Shown here one piece after another: positions 1 to 54,299 of a DNA stretch of 64,000 bases. The DNA comes from Tachypleus tridentatus. Taxonomy: Eukaryota > Arthropoda > Merostomata > Xiphosura > Limulidae. The stretch is from contig NC_134825.1 in NCBI RefSeq assembly GCF_004210375.1, positions 67,819,558 through 67,883,557 on the forward strand, written 5' to 3'. Position 1 is the first letter of the stretch. Each line of letters begins with the position of its first letter. A program made the translations under genes and the position numbers. The notes beneath the pieces were generated by a model that had not been told where the DNA came from, searched no databases, and was given only the letters and a program-made list of their open reading frames with translations.

Positions 1-16
1 AATATTGACTCGGAAG

Positions 17-3000
17 ATGTACAGTTTTGGAAGACTTCCATTGTCCGACGTGTCCAACAACACTGTCTCCAGTTATAATGTCAGTGACGTGGATGATTAT
101 AACAGCTATCTGCGAGACCTTTTAAGAAAGATGTTAGAAGAGTACGAGAAACGAAGAGAATTGAACGGTTCTGAGAACGGTAGGCAGTTCATATTTTGGA
201 TTTACTGTATTCTAAATTTCATTTTATTTATACTTCGTACAGTCAATATTATTTGAACATAAACTGTAGTGTTTCTGTAAACCTCTCTTTCTATATACAT
301 ATAAATACACAATATAAAATCTCCCTCTGGGTGTGAGATAAGCTTACAAACTTCTAAAAGCAAAACCCGAGGTTACACCTCCGTCGAAATGGACACATAA
401 TCCACTGCGCAGCTTTGGGCAAGAAACATAAGAACACATATACATATAACGACAGTATTAGTTGGTTTGTATTGGAAGGGCTCGAAAGTAGTTAATTTCT
501 TTTAAATCCCATACGAAATGGAGGAACCAAACATCTATATACATTTAACAATGTTAAGCATCTAAAACGTTCAAAATGAATTAAATCGTAACTAATAAAA
601 AATAAAACCAGATTATTTTCACGTTTATAATGTTTTAACAAACTTTTAACCCTATCTGAAGACATGTAATCAAATCAACTAAAAATCTGAACAAAGTTTA
701 ATGTGAAAATAATTTCCTTTCCCTTGGGACAACTTAATATTTTGTCTTGACCATATGACAATGTTTCTTACATTGGATCTGTCTTTACTTTATTATAGCT
801 CTTTAATTTTGTTTCAATACTATTCTGTCTTGACCTTATGACCTCGATTCTTTTAGATTGACGTTCTTTGAAACATTTTAGGCACTGTGGCACTGCAATT
901 ATATATATAGATTAAAACTAATGAGGTTAATTTAACACAGGTTTACATAAAAAACACTGGGTGCACAAATCCCATATTTGGTGGTCGAAACCTTGTATAT
1001 ATATTAAAAGTAAAGTGTGCTAGAAACTTGTGGATGCCTCGCATCGGCTGTTTCCACTACAGGAATGGAACCCCAAATGTTATCGTTAAAAACCCTTTGT
1101 TTCATCACTGTATCATAGAATACATATTTTGCAATTTTTTTCCTGATGTCCACAGAAAGATAGAGGAGTGTTATTAACAAGCACGAGAACGTACAGTTTT
1201 TATTATGAAGACTTGAGAATCACAAAACGACTTGAATTAGTCCAAGCAAAGGACCCGGTAACAGTTTGTTCATATGCAATTCTCCTTGCTAATCGACTTC
1301 CGGTTTTATTCGTGGAAGTCAAATAGAGAAAAGTCGACCCTCCTTTATGGAATGACTTTAAAAGGGGAAGTTGAAAAACTTCAAGATATTTGAAAAATTA
1401 AATATATGTTAAAGAAATTGGATTTGTTATGTATACACACATATATAAATATAAGATAATACATAGAAATCCAGGTATGCATAAAGATTTTCCTTTATAA
1501 ATGGAAATTTGACGTTCGTAGATATCTTTAAGTGTTTTGAAACTCAACAAAAACGCCTCTTGAATGCAACCTGATCCACCATTTGTGCTTTAATCGTATG
1601 TTCGTCTTCCTGCCCTCTTCTCCCACCCAAACACGACAACAGTGACAAGTTAATATACTAAGTTGCTTGAAAATCCAATCAAACGAATGTTCATTATTGG
1701 ATGAATATGTTGATTTGTTTGGACGAAGAAACTGGTGATGAATATTTACCTCGTAGTTTTTATTAGATAAAAGCTGTTTTATAAACTACTTCAAATCTAC
1801 ATAAGGAGATAATGTTTATTGACTCACCCATAAAATATGCCGAGTCATACAACCTTACTTCTAAGTTACAATTTATAACACAAAATATAAAATTATGAAT
1901 TTATATTTGATCTGATATGACATCGTTGATAATGAGTAAAATATCTTTGCACCAAGTATAAAGAAGTATGATCTTTTTCTCATATACAGTTCATGAAAAT
2001 ATAAATTGTCCACATGTGAATAAGGAAGGGATGTACGAAAATGTAATACCTATCTACCAAATTATATACATATAAACATTCATGTAGCAAGAGCTCTGTT
2101 TCTCACATAAAGTAAAACAAAACCCATACAATTAGTAATTTTATCTTACTGTTATTACGAAAGTTGTGTTTAAGACATCAGATGCAGCAATTCTTATCAC
2201 TTTATTTTTGCTTTGTACAGGTGAAGATGGATCCTCGGCTCTAAAAGTAGAGAGCGTGGATTTCCTTCCACGAGATAATGCTCTAAAACACAACACCCAA
2301 ATGTACGAACTCGTAGAGGGTCCTAAGCCTGTTCTCATACTTCGGCGTGGCTTGTCGTTTACTGTTACCATTCTGTTCAATAGAGACTACGATCCAAAGA
2401 AACATACGCTTAAACTGGAAATGTCGTGTGGTGAGTCAGAATAACAGTACCTGCTACACGTTTAAAAACGTATTTATTAATCCTAACGTCTTAAAGACAT
2501 GTTGAATAAGTTTTGATTTTAAAAAGGATATAATAACCAACAAACATTTAGTTTTTATAATATTCAACTTTGATGACAGTGATTATGGGTTTGTCGATTA
2601 AGAGTTTTACGAGATCTATCTTACGATATAAAATATTCTGGAAAAATGTATTATTTTATTCTTAAGGTGTGATAAGTGCACAAAAACATACTTGTCACGT
2701 GATTACACTAATTGAAGACTTTTTTCTATACATTTTATATTTAGGTTCGAACCCTCAAATCAGTAAAGGCACCTTAGTTGTAATACCCATAACCAACAAC
2801 GATTCCTATAAAGAAGATAAAACAAAGTGGGATGTGCGACTACAAAGTCATGATGGTTCTAACATAACTCTCCAAGTACACGTGCCCTCTTCCGTGGGAG
2901 TTGGAATTTGGAAGATGAAAGTTACTTCACAATTAAAGTCAAAAGATGACGAACCAGTCTCTTCTTCAGAAACGTATGAATGCAAGGAGAATATTTACGT

Positions 3001-6000
3001 TCTCTTTAATCCATGGAACAAAGGTGAGTTTAAGAGTAAAAATATCCATAACTAAAACTTATGTTTTACGAAGAGATTTTTTTCATTAAATAAAGGTGCT
3101 AAGAGTACTAACGAGATGTAATTTTGTTTTTGGTCGACAGATGACTCTGTCTACATGCAAGATGATAAAATGAGAAAAGAATACGTTTTGAATGACGTTG
3201 GAAAGATTTATGTAGGTTCGTTTAACTACCCACAAGGAAGACAGTGGATTTTTGGGCAGGTAATAAATGTTTAATAACTTGAATAAAACTGACATTTCTC
3301 TTCACTTTAATAGCGTCTGAAAAATAAACTATTGAAAAATATTGATGTTTATGTTTCATTTCGGCTTCTAAACAGTTACACAGCACAATTCTATCAATTC
3401 TACTTGAGTCAATAAGAAGAGTATATTTTGTATTTCAGTTTAAAGACTCGGTCCTTCCGGCTTGCATGTTTTTGTTGGAACGTTCTCGTCTCGATTACAG
3501 TTCCAGGACTAACCCAGTCAAAGTAGCTCGTGCTGTGTCGGCCATGGTAAGATTTCTTTGAAAAATCGTGATACGAGTATTACCTAATATTACCTTAATT
3601 TAATACATTTACTTTTGTCTCTTATCAAAATTGTGATGCAAGTTTTATCCACTTGTTTGTGTCAGGAAATCATTAAAAGTATTGTCTAAATATAATAGTA
3701 TAATAACTAATTGTTTTCACGAGTTTCAGCGCGTTCAAAACTATATTTAATCCAAGTTAATATTTCAAGATTCACTATACACTTCACATGTACTAAGCAG
3801 TAAATGTAATAAATACATAATTAGAAATCATTAAAAACCTTTAACTTTTTCTGATTAAAGGTGAACAGCCTTAACGACAACGGTGTGATAATAGGTAGAT
3901 GGCATGAGCCTTATGATGAAGGTGTCGCCCCCTGGAAATGGACTGGAAGCGCTGCCATTCTAGAAAAGTTTATGAAAAACGGAGGAGATCCAGTGAAATA
4001 TGGACAATGCTGGGTATTTGCTGGTGTATGCAATACTGGTAGGTTTCGCTTCTTTCTGCCTATATTATGTGATAACTAACTTTTATTAGCTGGATTTAAT
4101 AAGATGTGGATTGATGATTTGTTTTAATATCATACATTTGTCATAACGAAATTAAAAAGGAAAAATCAATAATCTTAAGATATTAATATCAGTGAAAGAA
4201 ATGATGAGCAATCAAAGACATTTGCGTGACAACAAATATAACAATTTAATCTGTTAATCACAAGCAGACATAACAGGTTTTTTATTAACATGTACATACA
4301 ACAAACTAATCTAATGTTGCGTATATGCCTTTATATGTCATGTTCATAGTTTCTTAAAGCATTTATTAAACATAAAGTTGATGACAATTTTTATACAACT
4401 ATATTACAAAAGGAGTTAACCATTAAAGTTATTAAGTGTTTTAGAAGTTATTTAAAGGTAACTATTTATAAGATGATACAGTTGTTTCATTCATGTTAAC
4501 ATTCACACAAAATGATTATTAACATTTCACTATCTTAACACCTCCTGTTCATACCACTAAATTCCGAAGAATCTCTTTCCACATCATAAAAGCGATAAAC
4601 AGAAGTAATATAGTGATTTCAATAACCAAGTTATTGTTTTAATATTTACTGTACATCACGAAAATGTACTTTCGAATATTTTGTCGGTTGCTAAAACATT
4701 TTATCAAAACTTTAATTTGATGTGTTGTGGTTACAGTTTGCCGAGCCTTGGGGCTCCCCTGTCGGCCAGTTTCAAACTTCGTATCAGCTCATGATGCAGA
4801 CGCTACACTAACCATTGACAAACTTTTTAACGAAAATGGAGATCAGATGTCTGGAGGAACAAATGATTCAATATGGTATGTAAGGTTTTATGTTACTTTA
4901 ATGTGATAATATTGTTTCAAATAGTTGTATATTAACGTCCTGTTCAGATAAGATTTAATTACTAGCCGTTTTAGTACAGTTTTATAAAGAGTTTCTGTAT
5001 TTGTTTTTGTTATATATACAGGGTGCACAGTCGCTGTGCAGTTTTTTAATCATAGTTTATTCAGTCACTTTCAAGACAGCAACTGCAAGCGGTGTTTAGA
5101 AACAAAATAAGAAGGATCCAGGGCTGTATTGATGCCAACGGGGGTCACTTTCAACATTGTTTATAATTGTCATTCAAATTTACCCCCTGTATTCTATATT
5201 GAAACTTGTCTGTTAATAAATATATAAGTGCACAGTAACTTTCCAAACACACTGTATATACGATATTTGAATAACTTTTGAAAATGTTTTTAAACTGTTA
5301 AAATTAGGGGAAAATAGCTCATTATAGCTGGTTTTTTCTTTTATCTTAATGACAAGAACATTCTCTAACGATCGATCACAAAACATGTAAAGTATGTGTG
5401 ACTTGGATTTGTCATTGAGTTTTGAACTGAATGAAATCAATGTGTTAAACATTTTTAAGTATTTTATATAAAGAAATCTTTCCTCTGTGATTAGTTTAAC
5501 AACACGAAACTCGTTCACTTTATTCAGATAACCTCTGAATAAGAAACAGAGATGTATTAACTAACTCGACAACTCGTGTTTCAGGAACTTCCATGTATGG
5601 AATGAGTGTTGGATGGCGAGATCTGACCTTCCTGCAGGATACGGAGGATGGCAAATAGTTGACGCCACCCCACAGGAAACCAGCGAAGGTATTGTGCAAC
5701 TCATAAAAATTATAGTTTCTATGTAAATATTTGAGAATTTATTTACGTACGTGTGAATAATACGAAAACTGTGGTTTTGTATGATGACTTGCAGTTTGGA
5801 TCTTGCAATTTAATATTAAACTCAGTTAAAGCAAGTTTCATAGTCTTAGAATCAAGAAATTTTAAAGCAATATCAAAAATTACTCTTTACTTTAAAGTTC
5901 TGGGAATATAATTAGATATATGTTTTGATATTTTCACTCAGGTATCTATCAGTTAGGACCAGCATCTCAACTAGCTGTGAAAAGAGGAGAAGTTGGATAC

Positions 6001-9000
6001 AGATACGACGTCCCTTTCGTCTTCGCTGAAGTCAATGCAGACATCGTGTACTGGCAGAAAGACCGAAAAGCGGAAACTGGGTGGAAAAAAAATGAAAACA
6101 AACACTAGCCAGTACGTAATTTTAAGTGTTACATGTTGTTTCTGAATGTACACCGTATTCACAGATATAAACACGCTACACAAATAACAGAGGACAAGGC
6201 ACTTGTAGTGGCTGATACTCTGGTTGGCTTCTTTTATTTCGTTCCGTAGTAAAAACTCAGGAACGTGTATACCTGAATACAAGTTTCTGCGACCTCACAG
6301 TTCAGCCACCTTGTATAGATAGTGCCGTTTAGGTTGAAAATTCCCGTTCCTAAAATCTTATGCATGTTTTTGAGCACAATACATTTCAGTTAAAAATACC
6401 GCTTTGTTATATCTATATAAATCACACTTCTTATTTATAAGCTGGTCTTTGCTTGCATAATAAAAATAGGCCCGAGAAGACAAACTTTTCTTATAATAGG
6501 TTATTCCTCAAAGATAATTAATCCAATTGTTAATAAATGTAATTAAAAGCTATTTCAATTTGCTATTTCGTCTAGCTGCAAGTATTACTTGAAAGATATA
6601 TATATTTTTAGTTGACGTAAACATAAAACGTTAAGTGAATTACTAACAAGTAACTGACTGGCTTTATTTCATTTCCGTTCCATGTTAGATTTAACTCCAC
6701 AACAACAACTTGCTTAATTTGAGAATTAGCTTGTTTGAAAGGCACAATACGAGTGTGATAAACTGTTGTTTTTTTAAACTTATAGTGTGGGCCGTCTTAT
6801 ACTAACAAAGAAGGTTGGAGTTGATGATGATTATGGAAACAGAGATGCTGAGGATATCACTTACGAGTATAAAAACAAAGAAGGTAAGTAACCAGTATAT
6901 GTTTATAAAAATAAACCGACGTTTTGAACACTTGTGTATTGGAAAGTTTGTTTATTTTGTTTCTAAGTGGAAAGCTACACAATGAGTTTGAAAAATAAAA
7001 TTGCACCAGAGAATCTTGTTGCCTGATAAAACTGGTTTGTGTCCTGCAGGAACCGAGGAAGAGAGAATGTCTGTACTGAACGCCACAAACAACGATATTG
7101 TGAGACACAGATTCGACCGACCTGTTGAAAAGAAGACGTTTCATTCGAGCTATTGGAGAGTAAGAAAGTGATGATAGGACGGCCATTCGATGTAACAATA
7201 AAGATTAAAAATCTGAGCAGCAAACCCAGAACAGTGTCAGCCATATTGTCAGCCAGCAGCGTTTACTACACTGGAATTACAGCTAAAATGTTGAAACGGA
7301 AGAGTGATAAATTTATCCTTCAACCTAAGCAAGGTACACTTATGTTACCTAGTTTCACCTTTCTTGTATCCGTATGATTTGTACTGATTAGAAGATAGAC
7401 CTCATGAGCTGTTTATAGAATAATCTAATTACCATATGTAAGGTAATTGATAAACAGGACAGGTGTGGGTGTTGACGAAGTAAATAGAGTTCTGATAAAA
7501 CTGTAATTGCGTAGTTCAGTACGGTAACGTAGAAGTCTAATACAACTTTATTTAAAATGATAAGCACTGTTGTACTAGTTCAACATAACTGTTCTTAAAT
7601 TAATTAACACCATTGTTTCTGATAGAATGTTTTCTATCATAGCAACAAATTGGTTCTAATATATATATGGATATATTTAAAGTTAAATTTCATATTTCCC
7701 AGAAGTAATGTTCAGGAATTTTCTATCTTTATATAAGTAATGAAAAATGATGATGTAACTACAGATATGTATTCACAATATTTATTATTAAAAACAATGA
7801 ATTACATAGAATTAACTTGTGATCTCGTTTTGTTACATGGAAAAAGTGAAGCATAAATGTGTACAATTAATTTAACGTTCGGTATACATTGAGAAATAGG
7901 TTTAGGGAAAATTGTAATAACTGTCTGTAGGGATTATAGAGATTCGTTTTACATAGAAAGTTATATTAAATATGTGTTATTTACAGAGGCACTTCTTTCA
8001 ATTAAATTGACCTCAAGCGAATATCTCGACAAACTGGTGGATTACGCCATGATAAAAATCTACGCTTTGGCCACAGTGATGGAAACGCAGCAATCCTGGT
8101 CTGGTGAGGACGATTTTGTACTGGACAAACCGAAGTTGAGTCTTGAGGTAAGGTCAAATAAAGTTATTATTTTTAAAATTATAACGGTAGACACTACATT
8201 ATGTTCCATATCTAGAATCCATGATAAATCCTCGATAATGAAATGTACTGTTATTATTATTTAACTTAGGTCCACGGAACTCCAGAGGTTGGAAGACCAT
8301 TTGAATTAGTTATCACTTTTCAAAACCCACTGAAACGTATTCTGGAAGATTGTGTCTTCAATATTGAAGGACCGGGACTTGCAGGACCGTACCATTCAAA
8401 GTTCAGGTGTGGAAAATGTGCTTTCTCGTGTCTTAAAATAAAGTAACTCTCCGTATTTGAGTAAATTTAATTTCACACAAAATTTCTTTAAACCTATCCG
8501 TATTTACGAACAAACAAATACCATTCGTCTTTACTTTATAATAACAATTCTAAAATAAACGAATTCAGCGACAATGTGTGAGAAGTTGATAAAAAACGGT
8601 TAAAAGACTAAGAGATACTTCTGAACTTAACAGTTGTTTCTCATATAGTAATTTTAACTTTGTTTATAATATTGTTTAAGGAGAATTTCATTTAACCAAA
8701 TTTAAATGGTGAGATAATCATACACAAAAAAACTCAATTAAGATCTTCTTAAGTCGAACAACTGTAGTTCAGAGACTAGTTATGATTAAGTTTGTTGATT
8801 AACATCGAATTTGAATAATGTTACCTGTTTAACTACGTTTAAAACAATACAAAGTTTACACATCGATGGCTATATTATGTTTTTTTTCAAAACATAATTT
8901 TGTACCATTACAGGGATATCAAACCAGGTGAAACTATAACTCATAACGAAAAACTCGTTCCTCAGCAGCCTGGTTCCAAGACAATATTCGTCACTTTCAG

Positions 9001-9085
9001 CTCTCGGCAGCTCATCCAGCTCATGGGATCAAAACATATTGAGGTGATCCCAAAATCCGATCCAAGCCACAACGAGACTTTATAA
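17..9085 (+). CDS. TGM: Hemocyte-type transglutaminase, copy A (14 exons)
   Basis: Calcium-dependent protein-glutamine gamma-glutamyltransferase, which forms isopeptide cross-links; in horseshoe crabs the hemocyte enzyme cross-links clot-associated proteins. Exons read from GT-AG junctions and reading phase: 17-179, 2221-2430, 2745-3023, 3141-3259, 3439-3546, 3861-4038, 4737-4875, 5585-5688, 5942-6111, 6786-6883, 7050-7333, 7987-8147, 8270-8406, 8914-9085, about 773 codons. The ATG at 17 is chosen because copy B starts at the same codon. Residues 1-60 are a charged extension without a signal peptide, then an N-terminal beta-sandwich, the core (about 180-510) and two C-terminal barrels (about 545-773). 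The triad is visible: Cys343 in [10 protein letters not shown] (codon 4008-4010), His402 in NFHVW (5592-5594) and Asp425 in QIVDAT (5661-5663). Two frame breaks relative to copy B: eight A at 6085-6092 in exon 9 (B has seven), giving an early stop, and four A at 7128-7131 in exon 11 (B has five). The remaining exons read open. Confidence 0.93.
376..1986 (+). other. Intron 1 segment present only in copy A
   Basis: Intron 1 of copies A and B aligns from the donor to about 375 (aaaacccgaggtta) and again from about 1987 (gttcatgaaaatataaatt). The roughly 1.6 kb between has no counterpart in copy B. It is AT-rich and noncoding; I see no terminal repeats and no transposase. It may be an insertion in A or a deletion in B. 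Confidence 0.75.
4250..4572 (+). other. Intron 6 segment present only in copy A
   Basis: Intron 6 is 698 bp in A and 395 bp in B. The two align up to about 4250 (caacaaatataacaatt) and again from about 4572 (atctctttccacatcat). The roughly 320 bp between is AT-rich, with no repeat family recognised. Confidence 0.65.
5018..5255 (+). mobile_element. Tc1/mariner-type DNA transposon remnant in intron 7 of copy A
   Basis: An element of about 240 bp sits in TATA-rich flanks. The left end (acagggtgcacagtcgctgt) and the reverse complement of the right end (acagtgtgtttggaaagtta) resemble inverted ends of an invertebrate Tc1/mariner-like family. Inside, on the plus strand, is the tail of a transposase reading [17 protein letters not shown] followed by a stop near 5166. 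It is therefore a deletion derivative keeping both ends and the C-terminal codons. Copy B lacks it at the same intron position. Confidence 0.7.
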
Positions 9086-11113
9086 GTTCTGTTTAAAGTT
9101 ACTGTTTGAGATGCAGTGTTGTAAACTTTAGGTTATTGAATCGTGTTGTTTAATTAATATACTCGTATTTCTGTGTAACTTATGCCTTTCAGGGATCAAC
9201 TTTTGTTTTTTTTTTAAGCATGTTAATTTTCTGTTTTTGCTTTCTCTTTTCAATACGATATGTTATAGTATTTCTTGGAATTTTTAAATATATTTTCGAA
9301 GTCTTGAAGATTGATGCTATATTTATACCACTTGGGTTCAACGAGTGAGCAATTTTTCACTTAAAATATATTTTCCATGTCTCCAGTTTAAATCACGTAT
9401 TTGTTTCTGTTAAAATACTTAATATCTGTTGTGTATTTTTCAAATTAAGATCGTATTTATTTATTTATTTATATATTTATTTATTTATATCTCGTGCAGT
9501 AGATGACAAAATGCTCATAGTGTATTAAACTTTTTAAAAAGTATCAATGAAATATAGTATTTGTTTGAATTAATTCGTGAAGGCAGGTTTGCCATTTAGT
9601 ACACTTTCAAAGTTAGTTCCTTATTAGAACCAGAAAGAAAATCGAAAAACATTTTAATTAAAATATCCAAGTCATGGTGATGATTTCATGTCTGGAAAGT
9701 GAGTTGCGCTGGAGTAAACAAATAACGATTTCAATTTGAAGATCTAGAATTAACAAATTTCACGTTTTGAAAATCAATGACATTTTTAAAGTTTGTTTTG
9801 TCATACCAAAGTCACCTCGTATTATTTGTTGTGTCAACCAACTAGAATCGAACCTATGATTTTAGCGTTTTATTTCTGAAGATATACCACTGTTTCACTT
9901 GATATATAACCCACATGTGAATACTTAAATAATCTGTTATCAAGGTCATACCAAAAGAGTTATTATGTTACTGTTTCTATCACTGTGTATATTCTTGTTA
10001 ATTAATTTGTAAAAAATCCAACTCAATAAACAGAAACAGAAAATGTTTCATTTCTTCCAGCATACATAGTTTCACAAAGTAACACCAACTAATCCACATG
10101 TCTAACTCACAGAGAAAACTAAATATTGCTTGTTAAATTTCCTCCGTCGTATATAACACCGTCTAACAGACTGACTCCTAAGTGATTAACCAGCCCATCC
10201 ACTAATTCACTGTGGTATTTTTATGAAATACTAGTTTTCCAAAAGTCTTTCGAAAATTGGATATGTGACGTAAGATTTAACACTGTGGAATTTCTGAATA
10301 ATTACGTCATACCGAACCTTTTATCTAGAAAAAAAAAAGACTAAATTAAATCACTCAAAAAGAAAACCTATAACTCTGGGCCTTCCAAGACTTTGAAATC
10401 GTTAGAACAATTTTAACACACAAATGGAACAAAGTGTGTTAAAGTTCCATATTTATTTATGTATTCTAATGTACAATTATGAAGATGTAATATTTGTTAA
10501 TGGAATTATCAGTACTAAATCGTTAATTAAACGAAAAAAGAAACAAGATCTTTTTACTCTTCCGTGGTTTGTGGAACTTGGACGAAACGATCTCTGTCCT
10601 TTGTTTTCATTTTGTGTCTTATCACGTGGCGAGTTCTCTATGGTAAATGGTTGAACGAATCCTTTTATGTCTGTAGTTCTCTTTATAATCTGGACGTTGT
10701 CTCAACAGGTTCTCATGCATGTTTAATTAGTTTGCCGAAAGCTAAAGTTTTGCTAGAGATGTAACAACTATCTGATCTCCTGTCGACGTCTTTCGAAAGA
10801 TTGTCAGAACACTTAATATTTCTTCTGGTTTCTTGTCTGTTACATTCAAGGTCGACTCTTCTCATAACACTGTGCACCAATCTTTGTAGTTATCTGAAGT
10901 CCATTCTCTAGCGGTGTAATTGTTATATAATGTATATTTGTTTCCTTGTCGTAGGCTATAAAACAATTTGAAACTACCCTAACTTCAAAACCGCTTTTCT
11001 AAATGAGTAATTTTCAAATATGCACTCATTTTCGGTATGTATTATCCACACAGTATGAAGTGTAGAGAATATATTCTGAAGACGGCTGGAACGGGTGTAA
11101 GAATTGTTATTAT
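9086..11113 (+). other. 3' flank of transglutaminase A, no gene seen
   Basis: Noncoding DNA shared with 38049-40042. It holds a TTTA microsatellite at about 9458-9487 that is longer than its counterpart in B, and a degenerate tRNA-like SINE trace near 9834-9925. Short open frames at 10424-10764 occur in both copies but match no family I know. A possible polyadenylation signal AATAAA lies near 10024. Confidence 0.6.
9458..9487. repeat. TTTA microsatellite
   Basis: Tandem TTTA units interrupted once by TATATA. The equivalent in copy B (about 39656-39674) is shorter, so the locus has changed length since duplication. Confidence 0.85.
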
Positions 11114-11217
11114 AATAAAGTACAGAATAATGTTTCGACCTTCTTAGATCATATTCAGGTCTTTGTTTTAGCATCAATATGACCTAAGAAGGTCGAAACG
11201 TTATTCTGTACTTTATT
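11114..11217. repeat. Hairpin with 42-bp arms, hammerhead-like motif (copy A)
   Basis: Arms 11114-11155 and 11176-11217 are inverted repeats matching at 40 of 42 positions around a 20-base loop. On the minus strand the arm reads CTGAATA, a short helix (gatc / ggtc, loop taagaa), then GAAAC. This resembles the CUGANGA-helix II-GAAA core of hammerhead ribozymes with one core mismatch. Such motifs are known in Penelope-like retroelements. No matching reverse transcriptase is adjacent, so this is a remnant at best. Confidence 0.6.
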
Positions 11218-11920
11218 TTAATTAAAATACTGATACCCATACCAGCCGAATAAATTTTTATTTCGTGTGGGTTTCTCGTCATCAGGAAGCGCAGAGAAGT
11301 TATCCACAGGAACTGTAACTTTCTTCTTGTTGTAATTTTATGTCCAATTGCAGTTCGAATTAATCGATAATAATTCTTTCTCTCTAAATGAAATTTTCTC
11401 TGTTTATTACTAAATCCAATACTGAACAGTTGTCGCTGTAGAACCAGTATTGATCAACATGTTTCAAGGATTTTCATCAACGAATCCATTATCTCATGTG
11501 CTGGTTTTTATAAATAATTAACAGTTTATATATTTTAGAGTAAATGGTGTTTTGTTAGTAAGATCTCGCCCATAAGCTCAGCTAATTCCTATTGTCCGAT
11601 GTCTCAATTACTCACTCTTACCGGTTCCTTCATCTGACTGAAGTCGTCACTATGGTGATGTCTCACTCTTTAAATACCATCTGTTTATTCCTTACACTCC
11701 TATAGTGATGACTGTGTTCAAACATATATAACAGTTCTCTTTTACTGACATCCTTTGGAAGGAATTTTAAATCCCTATCAACTTACGCCAACAGTTATTG
11801 GTAATATGTCCTTTCACGATACAGTCGAAATAACTACTGTCTTGTAGTTTCCATCTTCCGTTCTAAATAATTAATTATTTAATTATTCGTTTCACTTCTT
11901 CTGGAATACCGTCAGAGGGA

Positions 11921-12157
11921 GTTCAGCTAGCACAGATAACCCTAATATTGCAGTGTAAGACTAGATGGAAAGCAGCTAGTAATCATCACCCACCGCCAAC
12001 TCTTGGGTTACTCTTTTACTAACGAATAGTGGGATTGACCATTACTTTATAGCATCTCACGGCTGAAAGGGCGAGCATGTTTGGCGTGATGGGGATTCGA
12101 ACCCGCAACCCTCGAATTACGAGTCGAGTGCCTTAACCACCTGGCCATGCCGGGGCT
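11921..12157 (-). mobile_element. tRNA-derived SINE (copy A)
   Basis: On the minus strand it starts with a tRNA-like head: A box tggccaggtgg, anticodon-loop-like ctcgtaa (CGT, Thr-like) and a perfect B box gggttcgaatccc. The SINE body follows (aaacatgctcgccctttcag, later aagagttggcggtgggtgat). The same insertion is in copies B and C, so it predates the duplications. Confidence 0.88.
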
Positions 12158-32994: not shown

Positions 32995-32996
32995 TA

Positions 32997-34913: not shown

Positions 34914-35413
34914 NNNNNNNNNNNNNNNNNNNNNNNNNNNNNNNNNNNNNNNNNNNNNNNNNNNNNNNNNNNNNNNNNNNNNNNNNNNNNNNNNNNNNNN
35001 NNNNNNNNNNNNNNNNNNNNNNNNNNNNNNNNNNNNNNNNNNNNNNNNNNNNNNNNNNNNNNNNNNNNNNNNNNNNNNNNNNNNNNNNNNNNNNNNNNNN
35101 NNNNNNNNNNNNNNNNNNNNNNNNNNNNNNNNNNNNNNNNNNNNNNNNNNNNNNNNNNNNNNNNNNNNNNNNNNNNNNNNNNNNNNNNNNNNNNNNNNNN
35201 NNNNNNNNNNNNNNNNNNNNNNNNNNNNNNNNNNNNNNNNNNNNNNNNNNNNNNNNNNNNNNNNNNNNNNNNNNNNNNNNNNNNNNNNNNNNNNNNNNNN
35301 NNNNNNNNNNNNNNNNNNNNNNNNNNNNNNNNNNNNNNNNNNNNNNNNNNNNNNNNNNNNNNNNNNNNNNNNNNNNNNNNNNNNNNNNNNNNNNNNNNNN
35401 NNNNNNNNNNNNN
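34914..35413. other. Scaffold gap, exactly 500 N
   Basis: A run of 500 N, a round number typical of a fixed-size scaffold join. Distance and orientation of everything to its right relative to the left depend on scaffolding. Confidence 0.98.
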
Positions 35414-35864: not shown

Positions 35865-36655
35865 ATGTCCCGATATAAGCTGCGCAATCTCATCCGTTAC
35901 GTTTGACGGGATCTCCATAATTTTAGACAGATAAACCTGATCATTGTTCAGCTTTCATCCGAATTGATTCACCATAACTCTTGATGAAATCTAACAATCC
36001 CTCGAACAATCAACAACATTAAACTGCATGGTGTTCAATGAATCCGCTCCCGATTAACTGCCAATTAATTCATGAAAATCATCACACAATCCAAACCGAC
36101 AGAAGAACTTATTATCAGCCATGTCTTCTTTAACTACTTCTTTCATTTCAAAACCGAAAAACATTACAGAGGAAATCGTAAACACGCTTCACCAACTTTG
36201 GCAATCTAATAATCAAAATTACTTCAAGCTATAAACCCAACTGCCACCAGGCGCCACTCCACCCTCTATCGTCCAATTCGTCCGAACAAGCAGAAGTACT
36301 TTTACAACTGTTCAAGTTTCCCAAATCAACATCTTGGAAACCAAAGATTCAGCCATATAAACAGACATACCATTTATGCCACCAAGTTCACGTTGACTAC
36401 GCCTCACATCAGTAGAAAAAAGAAGCAAACATTTACCACCACTGTTGACCACCTTCGACAAATAATCTTCCAGAAATATTCTATAACTCCGATTTCACAC
36501 GCCTATATATTCCGACCCTACAATTTTTGACGGATTCTCCCCTTTCGACCCAACTAACTACTATGATTACAACAGCGACTACGAATGTAACCGTTCCTTT
36601 AAAAGCCTGCAACGTTCTGATGGTAACTATCTTCTGAGAAACTAATGTAATGTTT
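35865..36655 (+). pseudogene. Decayed ORF-like repeat R, copy 1 (family unknown)
   Basis: One plus-strand frame stays protein-like for about 260 codons with roughly a dozen in-frame stops. Legible segments are CAISSVTFDGISIILD near 35885 and SSLTTSFISKPKNITEEIV near 36125. Further on are FHTPIYSDPTIFDGFSPFDP near 36495 and FKSLQRSDGNYLL near 36600. A second copy lies at 57186-57682. The segment abuts the edge of duplicated block B. I do not recognise the protein. A dead retroelement or other integrated element is possible. Confidence 0.5.
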
Positions 36656-37018
36656 CACACAATCAGCTTTGGTCCTCTCCCAGTTTTAATTTTCCTTCTA
36701 CATCCCTGTATATAATAATTATAAAACAGTTTTGAAGCAGAATAAAGAGTGTGGATGATAGTTTAACAGAACTTGTGAAAACCTTTATCAAGATATCTTG
36801 TAAGGATGTTCCACATGAAGTGTGGATTCATTAATCCACTCAGCAGTTCAAAATTACCGTAATATATTAGGATATCTGAATTAGACTAAAGCAAGGCATA
36901 TGATCATCTTTGAAGGAAGTTTGACAGTTGACGATAGAACTTACATCCATTAAAATCACCGATAAAGATCTAAAAAACACCATACAGAAATTCAGGATAA
37001 TCACTTCACGCAAAGTGA

Positions 37019-37256
37019 GCCCCGGCATGGCCAGGTGGTTAAGGCACTCGACTCGTAATTCGAGGGTTGCGGGTTCGAATCCCCATCACGCCAAACATGC
37101 TCGCCCTTTCAGCCGTGAGATGTTATAAAGTAATGGTGAATCCCACTATTTGTTGGTAAAAGAGTAACCCAAGAGTTGGCGGTGGGTGATGATTACTAGC
37201 TGCTTTCCATCTAGTCTTACACTGCAATATTAGGGTTATCTGTGCTAGCTGAACTC
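37019..37256 (+). mobile_element. tRNA-derived SINE (copy B)
   Basis: Starts gccccggcatggccaggtgg, with the B box gggttcgaatcccc near 37070, then the SINE body. Same insertion as in copies A and C. Confidence 0.88.
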
Positions 37257-37944
37257 CCTCTGACGGTATTCCAGAAGAAGTGAAACGAATAATTAAATAA
37301 TTAATTATTTAGAACGGAAGATGGAAACTACAAGACAGTAGTTATTTCGACTGTATCGTGAAAGGACATATTACCAATAACTGTTGGAATAAGTTGATAG
37401 GGATTTAAAATTCCTTCCAAAGGATGTCAGTAAAAGAGAACTGTTATATATGTTTGAACACAGTCATCACTATAGGAGTGTAAGGTATTTAAAGAGTGAG
37501 ACATCGCCATAGTGACGACTTTAGTCAGATGAAGGAACCGGTAAGAGTGAGTAATTCAGACATCGGACAATAGGAATTAGCTGAGCTTATGGGCGAGATT
37601 TTACTAACAAAACTCCATTTACTCTAAAATATATAAACTGTTAATTATTTATAAAAACCAGCACACGAGATAATGGATTCGTTGATGAAAATCCTTGAAA
37701 CATGTTGATCAATACTGGTTCTACAGCGACAACTGTTCAGTATTGGATTTAGTAATAAACAGCGAAAATTTCATTTAGAGAGAAAGAATTATTATCGAAT
37801 AATTCGAACTGCAAGTGGACATAAAATTACAACAAGAAGAATGTTACAGTTCCTGTGGATAACTTCTCTGCGCTTCCTGATAACGAGAAACCCACACGAA
37901 ATAAAAATTTATTCGGCTGGTATGGGTATCAGTATTTTAATTAA

Positions 37945-38048
37945 AATAAAGTACAGAATAACCTTTCGACCTTCTTAGGTCATATTGAAACTAAAACAAA
38001 GACCTGAATATGATCTAAGAAGGTCGAAACATTATTCTGTACTTTATT
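37945..38048. repeat. Hairpin with 42-bp arms, hammerhead-like motif (copy B)
   Basis: Counterpart of the hairpin in copy A. Arms are 37945-37986 and 38007-38048. The plus strand reads CTGAATA at 38004-38010, then a short helix and GAAAC ending at 38030. Confidence 0.6.
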
Positions 38049-40042
38049 ATAACACCCGTACCAGCCGTCTTCAGAATATATTCTCTACACTTCATACTGT
38101 GTGGATAATACATACCGAGAATGAGTGCATATTTGAAAATTACTTATTTAGAAAAGCGGTTTTGAAGTTAGGGTAGTTTCAAATTGTTTTATAGCCTACG
38201 ACAAGGAAACAAATATACATTATATAACAATTACACCGCTAGAGAATGGACTTCAGATAACTACAAAGATTGGTGCACAGTGTTATGAGAAGAGTCGACC
38301 TTGAATGTAACAGACAAGAAACCAGAAGAAATATTAAGTGTTCTGACAATCTTTCGAAAGACGTCGACAGGAGACCAGATAATTGTTACATCTCTAGCAA
38401 AACTTTAGCTTTCGGCAAACTAATTAAACATGCATGAGAACCTGTTGAGACAACGTCCAGATTATAAAGAGAACTACAGACATAAAAGGATTCGTTCAAC
38501 CATTTACCATAGAGAACTCGCCACGTGATAAGACACAAAATGAAAACAAAGGACAGAGATCGTTTCGTCCAAGTTCCACAAACCACGGAAGAGTAAAAAG
38601 ATCTTGTTTCTTTTTTCGTTTAATTAACGATTTAGTACTGATAATTCCATTAACAAATATTACATCTTCATAATTGTACATTAGAATACATAAATAAATA
38701 TGGAACTTTAACACACTTTGTTCCATTTGTGTGTTAAAATTGTTCTAACGATTTCAAAGTCTTGGAAGGCCCAGAGTTATAGGTTTTCTTTTTGAGTGAT
38801 TTAATTTTTTTTTTTCTAGATAAAAGGTTCGGTATGACGTAATTATTCAGAAATTCCACAGTGTTTAAATCTTACGTCACATATCCAATTTTCGAAAGAC
38901 TTTTGGAAAACTAGTATTTCATAAAAATACCACAGTGAATTAGTGGATGGGCTGGATAATCACTTAGGAGTCAGTCTGTTAGACGGTGTTATATACGACG
39001 GAGGAAATTTAACAAGCAATATTTAGTTTTCTCTGTGAGTTAGACATGTGGATTAGTTGGTGTTACTTTGTGAAACTATGTATGCTGGAAGAAATGAAAT
39101 ATTTTCTGTTTCTTGGATTTTTTACAAATTAATTAACAAGAATATACACAGTGATAGAAACAGTAACATAATAACTCTTTTGGTATGACCTTGATAACAG
39201 TTTCTTTAAGTATTCACATGTGGGTTAACACCTAATATATCAAGTGAAACAGTGGTATATCTTCAGAAATAAAACGCTAAAATCATAGGTTCGATTCTCG
39301 TTGGTTGACACAACAGATAATACGAGGTGCCTTTGGTATGACAAAACACACTTTAAAAATGTCATTGATTTTGAAATTGACGTGAAATTTGTTAATTCTA
39401 GATCTTCAAATTGAAATCGTTATTTGTTTACTCCAGCGCAACTCACTTTCCAGACATGAAATCATCACCATGACTTGGATATTTTAATTAAAATGTTTTA
39501 CGATTTTCTTTGTGGTTCTAATAAGGAACTAACTTTGAAAGTGTACTAAATGGCAAACCTGCCTTCACGAATTAATTCAAACAAATACTATATTTCATTG
39601 ATATTTTTAAAAAGTTTAATACACTATGAGCATTTTGTCATTTACTGCACGAGATATAAATAAATAAATAAATACGATCTTAATTTGAAAAATACACAAC
39701 AGATACTAAGTATTTTAACAGAAACAAATACGTGATTTAAACTGGAGACATGGAAAATATATTTTAAGTGAAAAATTGCTCACTCGTTGAACCCAAGTGG
39801 TATAAATATAGCATCAATCTTCAAGACTTCGAAAATATATTTAAAACTTCCCAAGAAATACTATAACATATCGTATTGAAATGAGAAAGCAAAAACAGAA
39901 AATTAACATGCTTAAAAAAAAACAAAAGTTGATCCCTGAAAGGCATAAGTTACACAGAAATACGAGTATATTAATTAAACAACACGATTCAATAACCTAA
40001 AGTTTACAACACTGCATCTCAAACAGTAACTTTAAACAGAAC
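38049..40042 (-). other. 3' flank of transglutaminase B, no gene seen
   Basis: Collinear with 9086-11113 in reverse complement. The same short open frames (38386-38726) are preserved simply because the duplication is young. A degenerate tRNA-like SINE trace lies near 39225-39315. Confidence 0.6.
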
Positions 40043-43000
40043 TTATAAAGTCTCGTTGTAAGTTGGATCGGATTTTGGGATCACCTCAATATGTTTTGAT
40101 CCCATGAGCTGGATGAGCTGCCGAGAGCTGAAAGTGACGAATATTGTCTTGGAACCAGGCTGCTGAGGAACGAGTTTTTCGTTATGAGTTATAGTTTCAC
40201 CTGGTTTGATATCCCTGTAATGGTACAAAATTATGTTATGAAAAAAAACCATAATATAGCCATCGATGTGTAAACTTTGTATTGTTTTAAACGTAGTTAA
40301 ACAGGTAACATTATTCAGATTCGATATTAATCTACAAACTTAATTATAACTAGTATCTGAACAACAGTTGTTCGACTTAAGAAGATCTTAATTGAGTTTT
40401 TTTGTGTATGATTATCTCACCATTTAAATGTTGGTTAAATGAAATTCTCCTTAAACAATATTATAAACAAAGTTAAAATTACTATATGAGAAACAACTGT
40501 TAAGTTCAGAAGTATCTCTTAGTCTTTCAACCGTTTTTTTATCAACTTCTCACACATTGTCGCTGAATTCGTTTATTTTAGAATTGTTATTATAAAGTAA
40601 AGACGCATGGTATTTGTTTGTTCGTAAATACGGATAGGTTTAAAGAAATTTTTGTGTGAAATTAAATTTACTCAAATACGGAGAGTTACTTTGTTTTAAG
40701 ACACGAGAAAGCACATTTTCCACACCTGAACTTTGAATGGTACGGTCCTGCAAGTCCCGGTCCTTCAATATTGAAGACACAATCTTCCAGAATACGTTTC
40801 AATGGGTTTTGAAAAGTGATAACTAATTCAAATGGTCTTCCAACCTCTGGAGTTCCGTGGACCTAAGTTAAATAATAATAACAGTACATTTCATTATCGA
40901 GGATTTATCATGGATTCTAGATATTGAAAATAATGTAGTGTCTACCTTTAGAATTACAACAATATGATCTTTATTTGACCTTACCTTAAGACTCAACTTC
41001 GGTTTGTCCAGTACAAAATCGTCCTCACCAGACCAGGATTGCTGCGTTTCCATCACTGTGGCCAAAGCGTAGATTTTTATCATGGCGTAATCCACCAGTT
41101 TGTCGAGATATTCGCTTGAGGTCAATTTAATTGAAAGAAGTTCCTCTGTAAATAACATATATTTAATATAACTTTCTATGTAAAACGAATCTCTATAATC
41201 CCTACAGACAGTTATTACAATTTTCCCTAAACCTATTTTTCAATGCGTACCGAACGTTAAATTCATTTGTACACGTTTATGCTACACTTTTTTCTTGTAA
41301 CAACATTAGATCACAAGTTAATTCTATGTAATTCATTGTTTTTAATAATAAATATTGTGAATACATATCTGTAGTTACATCATCATTTTTCATTACTTAT
41401 ATAAAGATAGAAAATTCCTGAACATTACTCTGGGAAATATCAAATTTAACTTTAAATATATCCATATATATATTAGAACCAATTTGTTGCTATGATAGAA
41501 AACATTCTATTAGAAACAATGGTGTTAATTAATTTAAGAACAGTTATGTTGAACTAGTACAACAGTGTTTATCATTTTAAATAAAGTTGTATTAGACTTC
41601 TACGTTACCGTACTGAACTAAGTAATTACAGTATTATCAGAACTCTATTTACTTCGTCAACACCCACACCTGTCCTGTTTATCAATTACCTTACATATGG
41701 TAATTAGATTATTCCATAAACAGCTCATGAGGTCTATCTTCTAATCAGTACAAATCATACGGATACAAGAAAGGTGAAACTAGGTAACATAAGTGTACCT
41801 TGCTTAGGTTGAAGGATAAATTTATCACTCTTCCGTTTCAACATTTTAGCTGTAATTCCAGTGTAGTAAACGCTGCTGGCTGACAATATGACTGACACTG
41901 TTCTGGGTTTGCTGCTCAGATTTTTAATCTTTATTGTTACATCGAATGGCCGTCCTATCATCACTTTCTTACTCTCCAATAGCTTGAATGAAACGTCTTC
42001 TTTTTCAACAGGTCGGTCGAATCTGTGTCTCACAATATCGTTGTTTGTGGCGTTCAGTACAGACATTCTCTCTTCCTCGGTTCCTGCAGGACACAAACCA
42101 GTTTTATCAGGTAACAAGATTCTCTGGTGCAATTTTATTTTCAAACTCATTGTGTAGCTTTCCACTTAGAAACAAAATAAACAAACTCTCCAATACACAA
42201 GTGTTCAAAACGTCGGTTTATTTTTATAAACATATACTGGTTACTTACCTTCTTTGTTTTTTATACTCGTAAGTGATATCCTCAGCATCCCTGTTTCCAT
42301 AATCATCATCAACTCCAACCTTCTTTGTTAGTATAAGACGGCCCACACTATAAGTTTAAAAAAACAACAGTTTATCACACTCGTATTGCGACTTTGAAAG
42401 AAGCTAATTCTCAAATTAAGCAAGTTGTTGTTGTGGAGTTAAACCTAACATGGAACGGAAATGAAGTAAAGCCAGTCAGTTACTTGTTAGTAATTCACTT
42501 AACATTGAATATTTACGTCTACTAAAAAATATTTATCTTTTAACCAATATTTGCAGCCAGACGTAATATCAAAATGATAGCTTTTGATTGCATCCATTAA
42601 TAATTGGATTAATTATTTTTGAGAAATAATGTATTATAAGAAAAGTTTATTTTCTAGGGCCTATTTTTATTATGTACGCTTTGATGAAGGACAAGCTTCG
42701 GAGAAAGAAGTGTGATTTATATAGATATAACAAAGCGGTATTTTTAACTCAAATATATTGTGCTCAAAAACATGCACAAGATTTCAGGAACTGGAATTTT
42801 CAACCTAAACGGCACTTTGTATAAAAGGTGGCTGAACTGTGAGGTCGCAGACACTTGTATTCAGGTATACCCCTCCCTGAGTTTTTACTTCGAAATAAAG
42901 GAAAAGAAGCCAACCAGAATATCAGTCACTACAAATGGCGAATACGGTGTACATTCAGAAACAACATGTAACACTTAAAATTACGTACTGGCTAGTGTTT

Positions 43001-46000
43001 GTTTTCATTTTTTTCCACCCAGTTTCCTCTTTTCGGTCTTTCTGCCAGTAAACGATGTCTGCATTGACTTCAGCGAAGACAAAAGGGACGTCGTATCTGT
43101 ATCCAACTTCTCCTCTTTTCACAGCTAGTTGAGATGCTGGTCCTAACTGATAGATACCTGAGAGAAAATATCAAAACATATCTCTAATTATATTCCCAGA
43201 ACTTTAAAGTAAAGAGTAATTTTTAATATCCTTTAAAATTCTTTGAATTCTAAGACCATGAAACTTGCTTTAACTGAGTTTAATATTAAATTGCAAGATC
43301 CAAACTGCAAGTCATCATACAAAACCACAGTTTTTCTCAGGTTCATACTTTGTAAATAAGTAAATATTTTTTTGAAATGAATGTGTGATGATTATTATGG
43401 TTTACTTAATACAGCCATAAATGCATTAATAAATGATTGTAAAACTTTTGTATTTGCGTGTTTTGATAATTCAAATTATTCACACGTACGTAAATACATT
43501 CTCAAATATTTACATAGAAACTATAATTTTTGGAGTTAGACAATACCTTCGCTGGTTTCCTGTGGGGTGGCGTCAACTATTTGCCATCCCCCGTATCCTG
43601 CAGGAAGGTCAGATCTCGCCATCCAACACTCATTCCATACATGGAAGTTCCTGAAACACGAGTTGTCGAGTTAGTTAATAAATCTCTGTTTCTTATTCAG
43701 AGGTTATCTGAATAAAGTGAACGAGTTTCGTGTTGTAAAACTAATCACAGAGGAAAGATTTCTTTATATAAAATACTTAAAAATGTTTAACACATTGATT
43801 TCATTCCGTTCAAAACTCAGTGACAAAGTCACACATACTTTACACGTTTTGTGATCGATCGTTAGAGGATGTTCTTGTCATAAAGATAAAAAAAAAACCT
43901 TCTGTTATAATGAGCTACTTTCCCTTAACTTTTCACAGTTTAGAATCGTATTTTCAAAAGTTATATATCATATACTACATATATATAAGAAAAACAAATA
44001 CAGAAACTCTTTATAAAACTGTATTAAAACGGCTAGTAATTAAATCTTATCTGAACATGCCGTTAATATGCAATAATTTGGAACAATATTATCACATTAA
44101 AGTAACATAAAACCTTAAGTACCATATTGAATCGTTTGTTCCTCCAGACATCTGATCTCCGTTTTCGTTAAATAGTTTGTCAATGGTTAGTGTGGCGTCT
44201 GCATCATGAGCTGACACGAAGTTTGAAACTGGCCGACAGGGGAGCCCCAAGGCTCGGCAAACTATAAACATAAAACATCAAATTAAAGTTTTAATAAAAT
44301 GTTTTAGCAACCGACAAAATATTCATAAGTACATTTTCGTGATATACCGTAAATATTAAAACAATATATTGTGTTATTAAAATCACTATATTACTTCTGT
44401 TTATCGCTTTTATGATGTGGAAAGAGATTTTTAAAATGTTAACAGAATGAATTGTTATATTTGTTGTCACACAAATGACTTTGATTGCTCATCATTTCTT
44501 TCACTAATATAAATATCTTAAGATTATTGATTTTTCGTTTTTATTTCGTTATGACAAATGTATGATATTAAAACAAATCATCAATCCACATCTTATTAAA
44601 TCCAGCTAATAAAAGTTAGTTATCACATAATATAGGCAGAAAGAAGCGAAACCTACCAGTATTGCATACACCAGCAAATACCCAGCATTGTCCATATTTC
44701 ACTGGATCTCCTCCGTTTTTCATAAACTTTTCTAGAATGGCAGCACTTCCAGTCCATTTCCAGGGGGGCGACACCTTCATCATAAGGCTCATGCCATCTA
44801 CCTATTATCACACCGTTGTCGTTAAGGCTGTTCACCTTTAATCAGAAAAAGTTAAATGTTTTTAATGATTTCTGATTTTGCATTTATTACATTTACTGCT
44901 AAGTACATGTAAAGTGTATAGTGAATCTTGAAATATTATTATACTATTATATTTAGACAATACTTTTAATGATTTCCTGACACAAACAAGTGGATAAAAC
45001 TTGCATCACAATTTTGATAAGAGACAAAAGTAAATGTATTAAATTAAGGTAATATTAGGTAATACTCGTATCACGATTTTTCAAAGAAATCTTACCATGG
45101 CCGACACAGCGCGAGCTACTTTGACTGGGTTAGTCCTGGAACTGTAATCGAGACGAGAACGTTCCAACAAAAACATGCAAGCCGGAAGGACCGAGTCTTT
45201 AAACTGAAATACAAAATATACTCTTCTTATTGACTCAAGTAGAATTGATAGAATTGTGCTGTGTAACTGTTTAAAAAGCCGAAATGAAACATAAACATCA
45301 ATATTTTTCAAAAGTTTATTTTTCAGACGCTATTAAAGTGAAGAGAAATGTCAGTTTTATTTAAGTTATTAAACATTTATTACCTGCCCAAAAATCCACT
45401 GTCTTCCTTGTGGGTAGTTAAACGAACCTACATAAATCTTTCCAACGTCATTCAAAACGTATTCTTTTCTCATTTTGTCATCTTGCATGTAGACAGAGTC
45501 ATCTGTCGACCAAAAACAAAATTACATCTCGTTAGTACTCTTAGCACCTTTATTTAATGAAAAAATCTCTTCGTAAAACATAAGTTTTAGTGATGGATAT
45601 TTTTACTCTTAAACTCACCTTTGCTCCATGGATTAAAGAGAACGTAAATATTCTCCTTGCATTCATACGTTTCTGAAGAAGAGACTGGTTCGTCATCTTT
45701 TGACTTTAATTGTGAAGTAACTTTCATCTTCCAAATTCCAACTCCCACGGAAGAGGGCACGTGTACTTGGAGAGTTATGTTAGAACCATCGTGACTTTGT
45801 AGCCGCAAATCCCACTTTGTTTTATCTTCTTTATAGGAATCGTTGTTGGTTATGGGTATTACAACTAAGGTGCCTTTACTGACTTGAGGGTTCGAACCTA
45901 AATATAAAATGTATAGAAAAAAAGTCTTCAATTAGTGTAATCACGTGACAAGTATGTTTTTGTGCACTTATCATACCTTAAGAATAAAATAATACATTTT

Positions 46001-46985
46001 TCCAGAATATTTTATATCGTAAGATAGATCTCGTAAAACTCTTAATCGACAAACCCATAATCACTGTCATCAAAGTTGAATATTATAAAAACTAAATGTT
46101 TGTTGGTTATTATATCCTTTTTAAAATCAAAACTTATTAAACATGTCTTTAAGACGTTAGGGTTAATAAATACGTTTGTAAACGTGTCGCAGGTTTCAGT
46201 TATTCTAACTCACCACACGACATTTCCAGTTTAAGCGTATGTTTCTTTGGATCGTAGTCTCTATTGAACAGAATGGTAACAGTAAACGACAAGCCACGCC
46301 GAAGTATGAGAACAGGCTTAGGACCCTCTACGAGTTCGTACATTTGGGTGTTGTGTTTTAGAGCATTATCTCGTGGAAGGAAATCCACGCTCTCTACTTT
46401 TAGAGCCGAGGATCCATCTTCACCTGTACAAAGCAAAAATAAAGTGATAAGAATTGCTGCATCTGATGTCTTAAACACAATTTTCGTAATAACACTAAGA
46501 TAAAATTACTAATTGTATGGGTTTTGTTTTACTTTATGTGAGAAACAGAGCTCTTGCTACATAAATATTTATATTTATATAATTTCATAGACTCGTATTT
46601 ATATGAGACAATTTATATTTTCATGAACGGTAGCCCCAGGTTTTATTATTAGATATTTTTAAGATTACCACACACCCAGAGGGAGACTTTATATTGTTTA
46701 CTTATACTGAGAGAGAGAGGTTTACAGAAACACTACAGTTTATGTTCAGGTAATATTAAATGTCCGAAGTAGAAATAAAATGAAATTTAGAATACAATAA
46801 ATCCAAAATATGAACTGCCTACCGTTCTCAGAACCGTTCAATTCTCTTCTTTTCTCGTACTCTTCTAACATCTTTCTTAAAAGGTCTCGCAGATAGCTGT
46901 TATAATCATCCACGTCACTGACATTATAACTGGAGACAGTGTTGTTGGACACGTCGGACAATGGAAGTCTTCCAAAACTGTACAT
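40043..46985 (-). CDS. TGM: Hemocyte-type transglutaminase, copy B (14 exons)
   Basis: Near-identical paralog of the gene at 17-9085, in inverted orientation. Exons in transcription order: 46985-46823, 46423-46214, 45897-45619, 45502-45384, 45203-45096, 44835-44657, 44261-44123, 43650-43547, 43157-42989, 42347-42249, 42083-41799, 41145-40985, 40862-40726, 40214-40043. Exon lengths equal those of copy A except for single-base differences in exons 6, 9, 10 and 11. Only about ten amino-acid differences were noticed, for example WDLRL for WDVRL in exon 3, FKLLE for FELLE in exon 11 and SDPTYNETL for SDPSHNETL at the C terminus. Its own frame breaks are six G on the plus strand at 44763-44768 (copy A has five C) in exon 6, upstream of the catalytic Cys, and six T at 42257-42262 (copy A has five A) in exon 10. 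Exons 9 and 11 are in frame here. Intron 1 is 399 bp against about 2.04 kb in A. It is either an active gene with consensus errors or a very young pseudogene; I favour the first. Confidence 0.92.
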
Positions 46986-46998
46986 CTTCCGAGTTAAG

Positions 46999-54170: not shown

Positions 54171-54299
54171 AGTATATTGAATGAGTTTCTACCCTTTAAT
54201 ATAATACAGTTTTACATAGAGTGTTTGAATAATTTTCATAAAGAAATCTCCAACATCACATTCCTTAGGCAGCGGCAACAGAAACAGCTAAGAGTATGG

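Follow-up and report, generated by a model that had tools for sequence, protein, structure and literature searches.

Two kinds of described systems lie closest to the locus analyzed here, namely, clusters of near-identical genes in horseshoe crab genomes (PMC7210998) and haplotigs, or false duplications, in long-read assemblies. Published studies give a heterozygosity of 0.65% for Tachypleus tridentatus (PMC6390705) and 0.8% for C. rotundicauda (PMC7210998), and report duplicate copies for 4,855 of the 34,966 predicted proteins of a T. tridentatus assembly, suggesting redundancy and mis-assembly (PMC7210998). We analyzed a 64,000-nucleotide stretch of T. tridentatus DNA (hereafter, the window; NC_134825.1, denoted C1, positions 67819558-67883557) from the 2.17-Gb assembly GCF_004210375.1, which consists of 205 sequences. 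In this window, copies of a factor XIII-type transglutaminase gene flank PRKAB, the gene for AMPK beta, in apparently opposite orientations. Judging from the sequence, the locus is most probably (probability about 0.85) a direct tandem array of transglutaminase genes with a recent 112-kb direct duplication, next to which a redundant or misplaced 72-kb contig was placed in reverse, so that the apparent inversion would be a product of scaffolding.

The window was read together with its surroundings (C1:67719001-67960000, 10 kb at 68.55 Mb, and loci of 5-6 kb around eight matches), and a 3-kb transglutaminase gene probe was compared with the whole assembly, the resulting match counts being lower bounds. 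Coordinates without the C1 prefix or the unit Mb are window positions. Two gaps of 500 N each, at C1:67854471-67854970 and C1:67927215-67927714, interrupt C1:67719001-67960000, and there is no N from C1:67719001 to C1:67854470. These gaps delimit contig 1, with transglutaminase copy A and PRKAB, contig 2, with copies B and C, and contig 3, to the right of contig 2. The first gap, exactly 500 N long, occupies positions 34914-35413 of the window. In other genome papers, 500 Ns join contigs ordered with 3D-DNA (PMC10320752) or unplaced contigs (PMC9178229), and the gaps observed here are presumably scaffolding joins of the same kind. The original prediction, which described a large inverted duplication, missed both this gap and the 3' flank of a third copy at 62728-64000. 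Because of the 500 Ns at 34914-35413, the two arms do not lie on one continuous sequence.

Self-comparison of the window showed that positions 1-12519 match positions 47001-36655 in reverse, in several pieces. Arm A proper (1-12519, + strand), delimited by this comparison and by junction mapping, consists of the transglutaminase gene (17-9085) and the 3' flank that it shares with B, and arm B (36655-47001, - strand) consists of the gene, with exons from 46985 down to 40043, and the corresponding flank. The opposed arms thus exist as a match, and the segment 12520-12638, which had been assigned to arm A, is the edge of the PRKAB block. On contig 1, TG1 (C1:67782723), TG2 (C1:67802917), A (start at C1:67819574), and two copies of PRKAB are all on the + strand; TG1, TG2, and A, which is the third of the three direct copies found on this contig, form a direct tandem array without a gap. 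On contig 2, B, C, and a 3' part of PRKAB are all on the - strand. At 68.47-68.56 Mb, where the array is represented again, the + strand carries a PRKAB 3' part as well as the main matches at each of four transglutaminase places. No inverted match of at least 500 bp at more than 88% identity was detected within 124 kb of contig 1.

Contig 2, which spans 72,244 bp between the two 500-N gaps, is contained almost entirely in contig 1, in reverse: matches counted at a minimum of 500 bp and 90% identity cover 71,844 of the 72,244 bp (99.4%), with 34 in reverse and 0 in forward orientation. When turned, contig 2 is collinear with C1:67734884-67794593 of contig 1 and reads PRKAB 3' part, spacer, C (A-like, without exons 1-6), spacer again, and B; the repeated spacer is 8.5 kb long (99.2% identity), and C lies between the two repeats. 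Over the first 21.5 kb of the turned contig, divergence from contig 1 is 0.56% in the PRKAB 3' part (10.3 kb) and 0.31% in the first part of the spacer (11.3 kb; both BLAST mismatches). The rest of the spacer differs mostly by 0.6-1.4%, with one piece at 3.0%, and B differs from TG1 by 1.4% in the 3' part and by 2.4% in the exon 7-14 region, with an alignment of the last 8 kb of B to TG1 (97.5% identity) that extends to the very end of contig 2. Taken together, the same-strand copies on each contig, the gap, and the reversed containment make a direct array the most likely arrangement. Since B's contig is reversed across the gap, the inverted duplication would be a scaffolding product, and we infer that the reversal of contig 2 is an assembly error. 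A plain inverted duplication was rejected in view of the gap and the reversal of the whole contig. The suggestion that the arms could promote inversion of the AMPK segment finds no support, given that the inversion exists only across a scaffold gap, that contig 2 matches in reverse, and that there is no inverted match in the 124 kb of contig 1.

The DNA between the arms had been described as single copy and as carrying the AMPK beta gene. The gene is present: tblastn with a human PRKAB1 sequence as the query identified conserved exon stretches at 18724-18813, 23693-23797, 28485-28670, 29369-29437, and 30479-30556 (+ strand), and the open reading frame (ORF) 28476-28757 matches AMPK beta-1/beta-2 in a PDB search (best E value, 2.7e-10); Pfam AMPKBI scored 17.5 bits on one PRKAB exon ORF, below the cut-off of 24.3. 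The spacer is not single copy, because the PRKAB block (12520-34913, + strand) recurs in direct orientation at C1:67719846-67742243, a distance of 112,231 bp leftward along contig 1, with no gap in between. The two blocks differ by 90 substitutions in 22,320 aligned bases (0.40%, MAFFT) or 74 mismatches in 22,319 columns (0.33%, BLAST, from window position 12674 on), and by short indels numbering 74, of which 52 fall in runs of at least 4. The duplication junction lies at 12519|12520: the flank of A is common to TG1 and B up to 12519 and to TG2 up to 12513, and from 12520 on, A runs into the PRKAB block at the left edge of the latter. The same junction is present in copy C, on contig 2, where it is followed by 120 bp of the block and then a jump to the spacer; the occurrence of one junction on two contigs argues for a real duplication and against a chimeric contig. 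Moreover, the PRKAB 3' part (27560-34913) is represented at full length four times in the assembly, counting the window's own copy, so that two haplotypes of a single-copy locus are insufficient and at least one real duplication is required. On this sequence evidence, the direct duplication that includes PRKAB is real. The PRKAB block also contains a fragmented mariner-like transposase (13720-14755, - strand), with HTH_48 (Mos1 transposase) in ORF 14480-14755 (E value, 7e-22); ORF 13720-14028 has no Pfam match, and we take it to resemble the C-terminal part of such a transposase.

The proposed scenario starts with a head-to-tail array of factor XIII-type transglutaminase genes beside PRKAB. 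A recent direct duplication of a 112-kb unit would have yielded the order PRKAB, spacers, TG1, TG2, A, and PRKAB again, and the 72-kb contig with arm B, distinct from the first and a repetition of the array's left part, would have been set in reverse between the two 500-N gaps. Contig 2 would be either the other haplotype, which is somewhat favored, or a second array block. We further suggest, tentatively and at somewhat less than even odds, that the 112-kb duplication is very recent and possibly still polymorphic, adding copies of AMPK beta and of a block of clotting-type transglutaminases, with haplotypes that differ in copy number and copies mixed by unequal crossing-over and conversion; the truncated copy C between the repeats of contig 2 could then be one crossover product.

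Several observations weigh against the scenario of a direct array with a reversed, redundant or misplaced contig. The divergence of B from TG1 (2.2-2.4%) indicates that contig 2 is not a plain allele, contig 2 contains the extra truncated copy C between the 8.5-kb repeats, and the four places of the PRKAB 3' part require at least one real duplication beyond two haplotypes. In addition, the - strand holds a 52-bp piece of the partial transglutaminase copy at 68.56 Mb, the strands at 68.47-68.56 Mb are taken from separate pieces of a stretch that may contain gaps, and the other end of contig 2 has no match (500 bp, 90%) in 32 kb of contig 3. The start of contig 3 (C1:67927715-67939923 and C1:67944364-67960000) consists of direct repeats with a spacing of about 6.5-6.8 kb and 91-99% identity, that is, another tandem array beside the second gap; at the same thresholds (500 bp, 90%), neither contig 1 nor contig 2 matches these repeats.

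The two best surviving explanations of contig 2 are two forms of the favored direct-array reading and not alternatives to it. According to the first, for which we consider the odds about even, contig 2 is a haplotig, that is, the left part of the array (PRKAB-spacer-TG1) from the other chromosome placed in reverse, with B as an alternative or exchanged form of TG1. Its near-complete containment in contig 1 is as expected under this explanation, and the BLAST mismatches over PRKAB and the first part of the spacer (0.3-0.6%) are near the printed heterozygosity values of 0.65% (PMC6390705) and 0.8% (PMC7210998); the three-way MAFFT alignment gives 0.9% over the 7.3-kb PRKAB part, or 0.7% without the terminal 490 bases of contig 2. 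PMC7210998, which describes the T. tridentatus assembly as considerably redundant, points in the same direction. Against a haplotig stand the 2.2-2.4% between B and TG1, the extra copy C with the 8.5-kb repeat, and the renewed representation of the array at 68.5 Mb, by which contig 2 is not the sole candidate for the second haplotype.

The second form, which we consider distinctly less probable, is that contig 2 is a genuine second block of the array that directly follows contig 1 and was wrongly turned, giving A, PRKAB, the overlap, spacer, C, and B on one strand. Once contig 2 is turned, its far end aligns with the final 7.35 kb of contig 1 over their whole length (98.2%), and the duplication junction shows a second PRKAB block after A. 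In the three-way alignment (7,307 columns), the two PRKAB copies of contig 1 differ by 0.38% and contig 2 differs from the end of contig 1 by 0.81%. Within the overlap, 47 changes occur in contig 2 alone, and 18 of them fall in the terminal 490 bases of this contig, a concentration to be expected if the contig end is of poor quality. Outside these bases, however, the difference is still 0.59%, where a value near 0 would be expected; being greater than the 0.38% between the copies of contig 1, it argues somewhat against the contig ends being one stretch, and the assembler left the two ends unmerged.

It is improbable that the inverted arrangement is real, with a duplicated block inserted in reverse downstream of PRKAB to form large inverted repeats. 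The order is as given in the assembly, and Hi-C scaffolding may have had support for it, but this arrangement depends on a 500-N join, requires a whole 72-kb near-copy in reverse, and is not accompanied by any inverted match (at least 500 bp, more than 88%) within 124 kb of contig 1.

As originally predicted, the two arms carry the same gene. Copy A has 14 exons on the + strand (17-179, 2221-2430, 2745-3023, 3141-3259, 3439-3546, 3861-4038, 4737-4875, 5585-5688, 5942-6111, 6786-6883, 7050-7333, 7987-8147, 8270-8406, and 8914-9085, from exon comparison), and B has the same 14, with AG acceptors and GT donors at all 13 introns of each copy. Exon lengths are identical for 10 of the 14 exons, and in the other four (exons 6, 9, 10, and 11) a homopolymer run is one base longer or shorter, again as noticed before; with three run columns omitted, an open frame of 2,322 nt (773 aa) is obtained. 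In the B-copy protein, with the frame held, Transglut_N, Transglut_core, and Transglut_C all score above the Pfam cut-offs, and residues 74-761 of 773 match the coagulation factor XIII A chain (PDB 4kty; E value, 3e-151). Two stretches of this protein (17 and 12 residues) align with factor XIII A in the regions of the Cys-His-Asp catalytic triad. By these similarities, the gene is an animal transglutaminase of the FXIII/TG2 type and a predicted crosslinking enzyme. The donor of intron 7 is GTATGT in A (4876-4881) and GTACTT in B (44122-44117), and the B site looks weaker. The transglutaminase 3' flanks of both A (11083-11248) and B (37941-38052) contain a self-complementary, hairpin-like repeat (about 80% identity).

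As assembled, each copy has two single-base frame breaks, in A-runs of exons 9 and 11 in A, and in a C-run of exon 6 and an A-run of exon 10 in B. Of these four states, those of A exon 9 and B exon 10 are private, and the other two are common to another copy (exon 11 in A and C, exon 6 in B and TG2). TG1 is broken elsewhere (exons 4, 8, and 9); among the 68.5 Mb copies, compared in exons 7-14 only, the first (68.51 Mb) has several breaks, some outside runs (indels in exons 13 and 14), and the third (68.54 Mb) has none. The likeliest source of the A and B breaks appears to be long-read consensus error, possibly systematic at a given run. That A and B are decaying pseudogenes with broken frames, as the shared states, not favored by random consensus error, the loss of exons 1-6 in C, and the non-run indels of the first 68.51 Mb copy might suggest, is unlikely given that each of the four breaks involves a single base of a homopolymer run and that two are private, that dN/dS between A and B is 0.16, and that 52 of the 74 short indels between the PRKAB copies also fall in runs of at least 4, the pattern of long-read consensus error.

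Comparison of the A and B coding sequences, which had been proposed as a check, yielded 17 synonymous and 10 nonsynonymous changes over 772 codons (synonymous divergence dS, 0.035; nonsynonymous divergence dN, 0.0055; dN/dS, 0.16; bootstrap, 0.06-0.34). The proteins differ at 10 of the 772 comparable codons, close to the ten or so differences noticed originally, and the large intron indels were confirmed as well (at least 10 bp in 6 of the 13 introns, up to 1.6 kb). The contrast between conserved exons and diverged introns turned out to be weaker than claimed. Next to a dS of 3.5%, the 3' flank differs by 1.4% (48 of 3,374), introns 2-5, 10, 11, and 13 by 0.9-2.9%, and introns 1, 6-9, and 12 by 4.4-9.7%, the comparison of intron 1 being limited to 378 of 2,041 bases; these values come from local alignment, global alignment having inflated introns 1 and 6-8, and the division of the introns into a low group of seven and a high group of six was made after the fact. 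Given this noncoding patchwork, the exons are not simply conserved against diverged introns. The nearest neighbor also changes along the gene, both among TG1, TG2, A, and B and among eight copies, and the patchwork suggests sequence exchange among the transglutaminase copies. A and B are not simple alleles, being 3.9% apart over the exon 7-14 region, where the closest pair of copies is 0.62% apart. With this distance, the dN/dS of 0.16, and the presence of TG1, TG2, and A on one gap-free contig, the evidence supports the earlier view that A and B are distinct gene types, that is, real paralogs under protein constraint.

The probe search identified at least eight full or nearly full transglutaminase places in the assembly: at least five at 67.79-67.89 Mb (+, +, +, -, -) and at least three at 68.51-68.54 Mb, all on the + strand, in addition to the partial copy at 68.56 Mb, the main pieces of which are also on the + strand. 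Among the 28 pairs of eight copies, compared over the exon 7-14 region, the closest pair consists of TG2 and the middle copy of the second cluster (68.53 Mb), at 0.62%. The third copy of that cluster differs from A by 1.36% and its first copy from TG1 by 2.24%, and the differences are 1.68% between A and C, 2.36% between TG1 and B, and 3.94% between A and B; TG1 is the nearest copy to B. The copies at 68.5 Mb are spaced almost exactly like TG1, TG2, and A (20.5 and 18.1 kb versus 20.5 and 18.2 kb), so this cluster could be the other haplotype or another block; the presence of a TG1-type spacer, and not PRKAB, 3' of its third copy counts against a plain haplotype. Copy C reaches the window with its 3' flank (62728-64000, - strand), in which 62848-64000 is transglutaminase flank and the 120 bp at 62728-62847 correspond to the beginning of the PRKAB block; 64000-62728 matches 11367-12638 of A in reverse (99.5% over 1,273 columns). 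Only exons 7-14 of C were found, outside the window, and C is ruled out as an intact third gene, since this part of contig 2 lacks exons 1-6. Two other chromosomes contain sequences more distantly related to the transglutaminase exons (67-81% identity), at C10:75775156-75776366 and, in four places within 181 kb, at C3:63842331-64022998.

Repeats of about 200 bp are interspersed in the window at 11940-12149, 37024-37235, 47753-47963, 61851-62064, and 63216-63427. They have a tRNA-like start, are 79-83% alike between unrelated places, and possibly represent a tRNA-derived short interspersed element; ARAGORN predicted no tRNA genes in the window. A 40-bp tandem repeat at 54295-54692 comprises 10 copies (83% matches).

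An interpretation of this locus as an inversion hotspot would mislead, and a probable scaffolding error of this kind could cause genes to be counted twice, so the tandem arrays of this assembly deserve a second look before gene families are counted. With its compact set of transglutaminase genes beside an AMPK subunit gene that is itself duplicated, the locus would also be useful for studying copy-number turnover of clotting-type genes. Among the papers listed by a literature search on transglutaminase gene duplication in horseshoe crabs, none addresses the topic by title.

Among known systems, the factor XIII A chain (PDB 4kty) resembles the encoded protein in having Transglut_N, the core, and two C-terminal stretches, and differs in that the N-terminal residues of the latter, about 73, lie outside the match. 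Like a haplotig or false duplication in a long-read assembly, contig 2 is small, gap-bounded, nearly wholly contained, partly diverged to an allele-like extent, and reversed; unlike one, it has a transglutaminase part that is about 2% diverged and an extra truncated copy. The gene class, clotting-type transglutaminase, belongs to the same kind of system as the horseshoe crab gene clusters. As in these clusters, near-identical copies of one gene lie close together, over tens to hundreds of kilobases (PMC7210998). The main text of that paper contains no occurrence of the word "transglutaminase," and, in contrast to the clusters described there, a housekeeping neighbor, PRKAB, is carried along here in the 112-kb duplication.

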